Origin: Blastocatellia bacterium
Lineage (GTDB): Bacteria > Acidobacteriota > Blastocatellia > Pyrinomonadales > Pyrinomonadaceae
Reading direction: 5' to 3'
Assembly (NCBI GenBank): GCA_003168335.1
Contig: PMSM01000007.1
Location: 1 to 64,000 of the forward strand
Length of the DNA: 64,000 nucleotides
The stretch's first letter is position 1; every line of letters starts with the position of its first letter. Under the pieces are notes generated by a model, which did no database searches, was not told the DNA's origin, and saw nothing but the letters and a program-made list of their open reading frames with translations. The translations under genes and the position numbers were made by a program. Positions 6,129-50,650 of the stretch are shown here, in pieces.

Positions 6129-6130
<2 letters not shown>
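6019..6130. repeat. Palindromic repeat, GACAGGATTTAC family
   Basis: Inverted arms beginning GACAGGATTTAC at 6019 and ending GTAAATCCTGTC plus a repeat of AATCCTGTC by 6130. Relatives occur at 31007-31068 and 31468-31533. It fills the gap between thiC and the AraC gene and touches the thiC stop codon region. Confidence 0.75.
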
Positions 6131-8195
<2,065 letters not shown>

Positions 8196-8249
8196 CAAAA
8201 AAACCGCCCCACCTAAAATCAAAAAGGATGGAACGGTCAGCGGATGGCT

Positions 8250-8422
8250 GTTTCTCCCTTCGACGGTGTTAACCGTATCAGGTTCAAGGGGTCTCTGGAA
8301 GAATTTCGAATTGCGGAATGCGAATTTCGGATTTAACAACCCGGGGCTTCAATTCGCAATTCGCAATCCGAATTTCGCAATTCTCTCCGGACTCTCAGCC
8401 ACCAGTGCGGCTCCCCCGAAAC
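8250..8422 (-). promoter_or_regulatory. TPP (THI-box) riboswitch upstream of thiC
   Basis: On the minus strand, 5' to 3': GTTTC (P1, 8418-8422), GGGGGAGCC, GGCTGAGAG, a long insert, then AGACCCCTTGAACCTGAT, ACGGTTAACACCGTCGAAGGGA, and GAAAC closing P1 (8250-8254). CTGAGA, ACCTGAT and GAAGGGA are the conserved thiamine-pyrophosphate aptamer signatures. About 95 bases between CTGAGAG and AGACCCC form an enlarged, A/T-rich, self-complementary P3 arm. Position directly ahead of thiC gives the expected feedback control by TPP. The expression platform is not obvious because a repeat occupies 8099-8195. Confidence 0.95.
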
Positions 8423-8510
8423 GTATTTGATTTTCAATCTGTCGCAAGGGATTCTAGAACCAGAAGGCGTCAACTGCAAACTGAAATGGAAATGGTGAGC
8501 TTGAGTTTGG

Positions 8511-17181: not shown

Positions 17182-17580
17182 TCAGCACGATATTCCCATT
17201 CCAGGCATTCGCTTTGTCTGACGCCTGGTCCAAAAGATCAGCACGCCGCTCACCAGGAAATACAACAAGCCTCCCACCACGAATATTGCCGTGCTTTTCA
17301 GATTGTCGGCCTGCGAACGATAAGCTGGGTACTGGAAAACCGTCATGAAAAAAATCATGACCGTAGCGAACGACAGGATGGTCCAGACGGCCAGGGCGGC
17401 CACCGCTTGCAATACGATTACACCCTGGCGCAGCTTGTTGCGTCTGAAATTCACGATGCCCAGCACCAGAATGACCAGCGGGGTGATTACCATTACGGCA
17501 AAAAACAAAACAAGAAATATTTGGCCAAGGACGTCGGTTACTTGTCTAGACAATGTTTTCGGTCCTCCACTAGCCGCCAA
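17182..17580 (-). CDS. Small membrane protein of unknown function
   Basis: 132 residues with three predicted membrane segments: residues about 18-42 (IFLVLFFAVMVITPLVILVLGIV), 53-78 (VIVLQAVAALAVWTILSFATVMIFFM) and 92-112 (AIFVVGGLLYFLVSGVLIFW). Basic residues follow the first and third segments. I do not recognise a family. The start codon overlaps the end of moaA by 11 bases on the same strand, so it is likely the distal gene of a moaA operon, but nothing ties it to molybdenum cofactor synthesis. Confidence 0.7.
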   Translation of the reverse strand: MAASGGPKTLSRQVTDVLGQIFLVLFFAVMVITPLVILVLGIVNFRRNKLRQGVIVLQAVAALAVWTILSFATVMIFFMTVFQYPAYRSQADNLKSTAIFVVGGLLYFLVSGVLIFWTRRQTKRMPGMGISC

Positions 17581-18649
17581 TGAAGCTCATCGAGCGTGAG
17601 GGCGCGACAAACTCCGGATCGTTGATGAAGTGACGCGGCTCCTTTTTCAGCACCACGCTACGGATGAAGTCGATGATTTCAGATCGGGATGCGCCGTCTC
17701 TGACTACATCGCGCAAAGAGTGCTCGACGGTCGAGAACAGGCAAGTACGAATCTGGCCATCTGCCGTTAGCCTGATGCGCGAGCACGCGCCGCAGAAAGC
17801 TTCGGTCACCGGAGCGATGATGCCGATTTCTCCCGGCGCGCCGTCGGCAAAACGAAAACGCGAAGCCGTTTCGGAACCGCGCTGAACATCCAGCGGCTCG
17901 AGTGGAAATTGCTTTTCGATGCGCTCGCGAATCTCGCGACCCGAAACCACGTCGTCGCGCGACCATTCGTGACCGGAATCAAGCGGCATGAATTCAATGA
18001 AGCGCATCTTGACGTCGTGCTCGCGCGCGAATGCGGCAAAGTCTGCCACCTCATCTTCGTTGTGACCGCGCACTACGACGGCGTTGATCTTGATCGGTTG
18101 CAGGCCCGCCGTCTTCGCGGCTGCGAGGCCCTGGAGCACTCGATCCAGAACATCGACGCCGGTCATCTGCCGAAACACATCGCGTTTCAAACTGTCGAGG
18201 CTGATCGTGATGCGATCCAGCCCGGCGTCTTTCAAGCCCTGCGCGCGATCGGGCAGATAGTAACCGTTGGTGGTCAGGGCGAGATCTTTCAGTCCGACAA
18301 ACTTTGGTTTGTCGCTGTCTGACCCATGGCTCTTCTGACGCGCGGCATCGACAAACTGAAGTTTGTCGGACATTGGCTTTTTCAGTTTCGCCAGTTTGGC
18401 GATCATGATTTCAATGTCCTGGCGCATCATCGGCTCGCCACCTGTCAACCGGATCTTTTCAATACCCAGCTCGACAAAGATTTCGCAGACGTATTCGATC
18501 TCTTCGTACGAGAGCATCTGTTCCTTTGGCGCGATGGGCGGCTCGCCGTGCGGCAGGCAATAGAAGCAGCGAAAATTGCAGCGGTCGGTCAGCGACACGC
18601 GCAGATCGCGAATCGGTCGATTGTATGAATCTTTGAGAAGCTCAGGCAT
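17570..18649 (-). CDS. moaA: GTP 3',8-cyclase MoaA
   Basis: 359 residues. Radical-SAM enzyme of the first step of molybdopterin synthesis, turning GTP into 3',8-cyclo-7,8-dihydroGTP. The N-terminal cluster motif CNFRCFYC (Cys 24, 28, 31) is followed by IRLTGGEPMMRQDI; the C-terminal cluster is CGACSRIRLTADGQIRTC; the protein ends in the Gly-Gly tail that MoaA needs. It is about 30 residues longer than E. coli MoaA because residues about 93-120 (SDKLQFVDAARQKSHGSDSD...) are encoded by an in-frame palindromic element (18292-18371) placed just before the conserved strand DLALTTNGYYL. No other moa genes are nearby. Confidence 0.97.
   Translation of the reverse strand: MPELLKDSYNRPIRDLRVSLTDRCNFRCFYCLPHGEPPIAPKEQMLSYEEIEYVCEIFVELGIEKIRLTGGEPMMRQDIEIMIAKLAKLKKPMSDKLQFVDAARQKSHGSDSDKPKFVGLKDLALTTNGYYLPDRAQGLKDAGLDRITISLDSLKRDVFRQMTGVDVLDRVLQGLAAAKTAGLQPIKINAVVVRGHNEDEVADFAAFAREHDVKMRFIEFMPLDSGHEWSRDDVVSGREIRERIEKQFPLEPLDVQRGSETASRFRFADGAPGEIGIIAPVTEAFCGACSRIRLTADGQIRTCLFSTVEHSLRDVVRDGASRSEIIDFIRSVVLKKEPRHFINDPEFVAPSRSMSFIGG
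18292..18371. repeat. In-frame palindromic element inside moaA
   Basis: Perfect 13-base arms GTCCGACAAACTT (18292-18304) and AAGTTTGTCGGAC (18359-18371). Each end also contains its own inner hairpin (CGACAAACTTTGGTTTGTCG and CGACAAACTGAAGTTTGTCG). With its flanks the insert accounts for about 28 residues absent from E. coli MoaA, without stop or frameshift. Confidence 0.87.
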
Positions 18650-34956: not shown

Positions 34957-35055
34957 GGCTTTTGGAACGGGTAACTTAGGCTTAACAAAAGATCGTTCCC
35001 GGTGATGCTTCTAAGAGGGAAGCGTTCTATGAGCCATCGAAGATGGCGGCAGATT

Positions 35056-35195
35056 GTAGCCCCGGGCGTAAGCCCGGGGACCAGTGCCGCAAAAAATAAC
35101 AAGCCCTCGAGGAGGGCGACCGAAACTTCTGTCGCCCCTACTTGGCTCTGGGACCTTCAGGGTAACGCTACCCCCGGGCTTACGCCCGGGGCTAC
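35056..35195. repeat. Inverted-repeat element in gap 34957-35327
   Basis: Perfect 24-base arms at 35056-35079 and 35172-35195, each a palindrome around CCCGGGCGTAAGCCCGGG. The centre holds a GAGGGCGACC...GTCGCCC pair. The remainder of 34957-35327 shows a CCGCAAACGCGG hairpin but no gene and no clear promoter for the PfkB gene. Confidence 0.87.
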
Positions 35196-50412: not shown

Positions 50413-50650
50413 GGCCGCTCCGCGGGTTTGTTCAAGCGCCAAAGGCGCGAAATGTAAAAGCCTGGGCCAACGGCCCAGGTTGGGTCATTTTGTAAAAGAC
50501 AATGAGCGCTGAAGGCGCGGAATAGAATTGAGTTCTCCTCACAAATTATTTCGCGCCTTCAGCGCTCAGACTTGTTTTGCGGTTATTGATCCAGGGGCGA
50601 CGCTTCGCTTGCCCCTGGCTATTACATCTCACGCCTTCAGCGTGAACATC
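50413..50650. repeat. Palindromic repeat cluster in gap 50400-50656
   Basis: AGCGCCAAAGGCGCG, GCCTGGGCCAACGGCCCAGG, GAGCGCTGAAGGCGCG and TTTCGCGCCTTCAGCGCTC hairpins, like those at 18718-18850. No gene is seen. Confidence 0.72.

Follow-up and report, generated by a model that had tools for sequence, protein, structure and literature searches.

A palindromic element is read in frame within moaA

The moaA gene of the window, by which we mean the whole 64,000-nucleotide stretch of DNA that was analysed, lies on the minus strand (positions 17570–18649), comprises 359 codons and has intact radical-SAM and MoaA C-terminal Pfam domains. Within the gene lies a REPIN-like element of 80 bp (18292–18371, minus strand), whose in-frame translation contributes SDKLQFVDAARQKSHGSDSDKPKFVG to MoaA. 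The 5′ REP on the coding strand (18349–18371, minus) is a GTCCGACAAACTTCAGTTTGTCG hairpin with the GTCC tag at its outer end, the 3′ REP (18292–18314, plus) is inverted and carries the variant GTCCGACAAACTTTGG, an arm sequence found in only 2 of 102 sampled arms, and a variable spacer of 34 bp (18315–18348, no strand assigned) separates the two. Read along the moaA strand, the order is GTCCGACAAACTTCAGTTTGTCG, the 34-bp spacer and CGACAAACCAAAGTTTGTCGGAC. Both ends are 23-bp GTCC-tagged hairpins in inverted orientation, each of which folds by itself, and the two ends also pair with one another. A preliminary description of this DNA had noted 13-base perfect outer arms, two inner hairpins and a reading frame free of stops. 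All of this was borne out: the arms lie at 18292–18304 and 18359–18371, the hairpins at 18295–18314 and 18349–18368, and the 359-residue ORF is intact across the element. The coded residues, previously given as about 93–120 of MoaA, are ∼93–119. Likewise, the stretch from GGEP to TTNG indeed measures 52 residues in the window MoaA as compared to 24–26 in repeat-free relatives. The corresponding loop of Staphylococcus aureus MoaA is very short, since the blocks aligned to structure 1TV7 stop at chain residue 92 and restart at 94.

The RNA of the element is predicted to fold with −34.5 kcal/mol, as opposed to −18.9 ± 3.0 kcal/mol for shuffled sequences (z = −5.2). Conceivably, so strong a fold could mean that the palindrome acts as RNA within the moaA transcript, through an effect on pausing, stability or attenuation, for instance, and that the peptide is incidental. 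However, the element resides inside an ORF and lacks both stop and terminator, a fold of this kind is expected of any mobile palindrome, relatives with an empty site have no palindrome, and other sequences that fill the same loop, such as the heptamer arrays described below, are not palindromic throughout. We therefore consider a role at the RNA level extremely improbable.

Only one full-length match to MoaA, a cofactor-making enzyme, was recovered from the genome, namely the window protein, which resembles the S. aureus structures both in its sequence and in its fold. Strong purifying selection acts on its core, with dN/dS values of 0.04–0.06 in comparisons with the nearest carriers of the insert and the nearest relative with an empty site. 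Because of this selection, and because the genome gave a single full-length match, the insert-bearing MoaA is very probably a working enzyme, as judged from sequence. When the loop between the GGEP helix and the TTNGY strand, singled out in the preliminary description, was modelled with AlphaFold2, the core was predicted with confidence (pTM 0.83) and the insert appeared as a poorly ordered segment (pLDDT about 47–61) between helix 79–90 and strand 122–127. The ∼26 extra residues are probably flexible. In barrel folds of this type, the helix-to-strand loop is located on the side of the barrel that points away from the active site, and by analogy the insert would be positioned on that side of MoaA.

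The element belongs to an abundant GTCC-tagged repeat family

Exact copies of GTCCGACAAACTT numbered 89 in the genome of the window (G000), split 50 to 39 between the two strands, and 284 in G034, a member of a different genus of the Pyrinomonadaceae with the highest count among 60 relatives. The reversed control sequence gave 0 matches in either genome. With 89 exact copies versus none for the backward pattern, the window element is far from a chance arrangement, and the possibility that the repeat has no other copy in the genome, which would have spoken against the preliminary description, does not hold. No Rfam family matched the element, and its exact arm sequence was absent from the papers in the literature searched.

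Copies were studied in sampled stretches surrounding 59 places in G000 and 40 in G034. Most of them are inverted pairs of 55–130 bp with variable spacers, single REPs occur as well, and nearly all sampled arms carry the GTCC tag. About 96% of the sampled copies lie outside genes, and elements in frame within a convincing gene amounted to 3 of the 73 sampled from G000 and 5 of the 62 sampled from G034. Given that the window is 86% coding, such a scarcity of in-gene elements has a binomial P below 1e-40. The three cases in G000 concern moaA, a PMT-type glycosyltransferase gene and a putative FAD monooxygenase gene; those in G034 concern moaA, thiC, mutS2, agmatine deiminase and molybdopterin oxidoreductase. 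In addition, in-frame copies were found in a putative asparagine synthetase and a putative alpha/beta hydrolase of G004 and in the agmatine deiminase of G014. The usual reading frame yields SDKLQFV/DKLKFVG, while PTNFSLS is read instead in thiC and the glycosyltransferase gene.

Several candidates were not retained. A possible fourth in-gene case in G000 (L105) was left uncounted, as its ORF is short with a weak coding score, and copies at a NUDIX gene (L063), nuoE (L050), an sdhA-like gene (L097), L073, L077, L081 and L090 were set aside, being located before the likely start codon. The idea that the paired in-gene copies form a separate coding subfamily, marked by a VADARE spacer, gained no support, as the insert profile matched mostly ordinary intergenic copies.

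Two further observations concern the elements themselves. Where a GTCC element follows A and T, an ATG arises in frame with SDKLQFV (L297, L319, L107:168–758), and elements of this kind are possible new starts or N-terminal extensions, for example of an AMP-ligase-like ORF in G002. Separately, the larger elements at L069, L070, L083 and L093 start with GTCCGACAAACTTCAG, or reach the REP hairpin, and run into GGAAACTCTGAACAAGT-type sequence; they have the look of REP hairpins whose tip had received a second repeat.

The same moaA loop is filled repeatedly

To place the insert among its homologues, 80 related MoaAs were compared, and 317 of ∼324 inserted residues proved to reside at this single alignment position. 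The GTCC family occupies the same loop in L106 (G004), L107 (G034) and L109, the last with a single REP. The MoaA nearest to that of the window, L108 (G001), has an empty site, as do L111 and L112 from other close relatives. In the empty relatives the loop is of ordinary length, 26 residues, and includes a conserved GL motif, and distant MoaAs showed no conserved insert. The 89 exact copies and the three empty sites uphold the earlier proposal that a repeat family unrelated to the one in thiC had inserted in frame in moaA. In a sister clade, the same MoaA loop is filled by other sequences, namely CAAAATC-type heptamer arrays, ATTACGA-type arrays and a CCGCC...GGCGG palindrome. Genome-wide, matches to the CAAAATC-type heptamer numbered 150 in G010 and 100 in G028, the genomes where it is most evident, and 0 in G000 and G034.

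Descent rather than recurrence would imply a single ancestral moaA insertion, passed on to G000, G004, G034 and L109, and several precise losses. On a DNA tree built without the loop, the presence of the REPIN requires 4 changes. The window and L106 have in common the uncommon CCAAAG arm variant and the 80-bp length, and their monophyly was not rejected in the approximately unbiased (AU) test (p = 0.4). However, the AU test rejected clades of all four carriers (p = 0.022) and of three together (p = 0.032), and the loop with its GL motif in the empty relatives would demand precise loss many times. Furthermore, the copies differ in their distance from the conserved MoaA flanks, and unrelated repeat families fill the same loop. 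One common origin of the four carriers is thus disfavoured, and inheritance from one ancestral insertion seems unlikely to us. For the window and L106 alone, the shared CCAAAG variant and the joint clade that was not rejected imply that they may represent one insertion, later lost in L108. Pointing the other way, the arms of these two copies are identical despite a dS of about 1.06 over the remainder of the gene, and so appear either to postdate the species split or to have been homogenised.

Alternatively, the insert could be a selected part of the enzyme, such as a beta-hairpin, an oligomerisation segment or a regulatory segment, with its amino acids conserved. This would be in line with the retention of the frame SDKLQFVD...DKLKFVG in four MoaAs, MutS2, agmatine deiminase and other proteins. 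By contrast, the arms match a genomic DNA repeat that is mostly extragenic, the spacer diverges between the window and L106 (dN 0.24, dS 0.17 over 78 nt), the modelled loop is of low confidence, and there are relatives without the insert. We therefore regard a selected enzyme segment as highly improbable.

Unrelated repeat families share sites in thiC and agmatine deiminase

The thiC gene of the window (6129–8150, minus strand) contains in frame a TTTGGAGTGCG...CGCACTCCAAA palindrome (7522–7584, minus) that is unrelated to the GTCC family. This site, between RENLGR and PRDSL, is occupied by the TTTGGAGTGCG palindrome in G000, by single GTCC REPs in G034 and G014, and by a GGTACGC...GCGTACC palindrome in G004 and G005. 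Similarly, the agmatine deiminases of G034 and G014 carry a GTCC element and that of G004 a GTACGC palindrome, so that three palindrome families use the thiC site and two the agmatine deiminase site. The GTACGC family has 37 copies genome-wide in G005 and 11 in G004.

These shared sites bear on the notion that the GTCC family owes its positions to a preferred DNA target within these genes and not to filtering according to what a site tolerates. AT usually occurs before and after the copies, and ATGTCCGACAAA was found in 53 of ∼91 arms, as a preferred target might entail. A target specific to one family would not, however, predict unrelated families at the same sites, and the distances to the flanks differ. 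Target preference is accordingly a very unlikely explanation in our judgement.

Additional repeats were observed around thiC. A second TTTGGAGTGCG...CGCACTCCAAA palindrome lies just upstream of the gene, at about 8090–8190, and the 320 kb of genome sampled contain TTGGAGTGCG 38 times, in some cases adjoining GTCC elements. Upstream of thiC there is also a TPP riboswitch (8238–8427, minus), the variable arm of which is filled with inverted ATTGCGA/GAATTGC-type heptamer repeats; therefore, a structured RNA has been enlarged by repeats as well. Elsewhere in the window, two Acido-Lenti-1 RNA matches exceeded the Rfam gathering score (35032–35079 and 50435–50479, minus).

Relation to known repeat families

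REPINs are REP doublets that form hairpins (PMC3116915). The GTCC family is a REPIN by anatomy, as it consists of inverted REP pairs with a short spacer that are able to form a hairpin, and it is dispersed in high copy number, mostly extragenically, within one genome. Among the Y1 loci inspected, there was no RAYT (Y1 transposase) flanked by GTCC REPs. Specifically, exact or one-mismatch GTCC REPs were absent within 1.5 kb of the eight best of the Y1 transposases of G000 (six weaker matches being left out) and of 30 Y1 loci in three relatives (G002, G004 and G034), two-mismatch matches occurred near just three Y1 loci, and none of the high-copy 12-mers near RAYTs was linked to the GTCC family. 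One Y1 transposase gene of G000 (L010:1380–2024) has on both sides GGCCCGAAGGGC palindromes, which are unlike the GTCC REP; it is likely a RAYT with its own REP family.

The GTCC tag in nearly all arms places the family outside the GTAG REP superfamily (PMC3733652). The CGTC superfamily is defined by a CGTC (or TGTC/CCTC) tag, a stem starting with A-T pairs, a loop of 4–5 nt and a CCA tail (PMC3733652). The tag of the GTCC family could be read as TGTC, but the stem of its REPs starts with C-G/G-C pairs, their loop is ∼2 nt and the CCA tail is missing. Some intragenic GTAG/CGTC REP dimers reside in ORFs, where they encode 20–30 amino acids, in several phyla, and a same-site case is known from recB in two Xanthomonas species (PMC3733652). 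The GTCC family resembles REPINs and these dimers in its inverted REP hairpins with a spacer, its many copies and its mostly intergenic location with some copies in ORFs. It differs from them in the GTCC tag, in the lack of an adjoining RAYT at the inspected loci, in its Pyrinomonadaceae host and in that unrelated families occupy the same site in three genes.

Rickettsia palindromic elements (RPEs) are in-frame palindromes in the ORFs of likely functional proteins, and RPE-4 and RPE-6 are CGTC-tagged (PMC3733652). With RPEs, compared here by description, the GTCC elements share in-frame insertion into intact ORFs (moaA, thiC, mutS2, agmatine deiminase and others), whereas sequence and phylum are different. 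PARCEL (palindromic amphipathic repeat coding sequences) is described as a pattern of tandem repeats within the genes of surface-type repeat proteins (PMC2996958). To judge from that description, both are palindromic DNA repeats that become translated, while our cases are single elements in loops of metabolic enzymes.

Discussion

We consider it highly likely that non-autonomous mobile palindromes insert widely and that the rare in-frame copies retained by selection are those in tolerant loops. The source of the window element would be a high-copy, non-autonomous family of REPIN-like elements, built of paired GTCC-tagged REP hairpins in inverted orientation, and the filled and empty sites in relatives suggest that this family is mobile, presumably by transposition. 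One copy would have inserted into the helix-to-strand loop of moaA in a soil acidobacterium of the Pyrinomonadaceae. The gene would have survived because the main frame (SDKLQFV...DKLKFVG) contains no stop and the net insertion preserved the reading frame, and the enzyme would thereby have gained about 26 extra residues in a surface loop, probably as a neutral change. Across the genome, selection would remove most of the in-gene insertions, leaving survivors that are nearly all intergenic. An in-gene copy would persist where it leaves the gene in frame, where the frame in which it is itself read is free of stops and where it enters a loop able to take up added length. Since in-gene copies would last only where a loop tolerates the insert, the same few loops would be reused across species and by different repeat families.

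Translated palindromic elements in Rickettsia and GTAG/CGTC REP dimers in other phyla are already known (PMC3733652). New with respect to the literature searched are the GTCC-tagged family in Pyrinomonadaceae and the finding that, in three enzymes, unrelated repeat families have made repeated use of the same loops. Whether an in-frame palindromic insertion is an accident or marks a predictably tolerant loop has so far been hard to test. Orthologous loops of three enzymes that hold unrelated repeats, together with sister sequences that are empty, constitute a natural insertion screen, which allows tolerance, independent gain and the later use of added residues to be measured. A more far-reaching view, to which we give a rather low probability, is that translated mobile repeats regularly supply new loop sequence in the Pyrinomonadaceae, where a few enzyme loops would time and again gain, lose and regain inserts from unrelated families of palindromes and heptamers, and some of the insertions may become useful protein segments.
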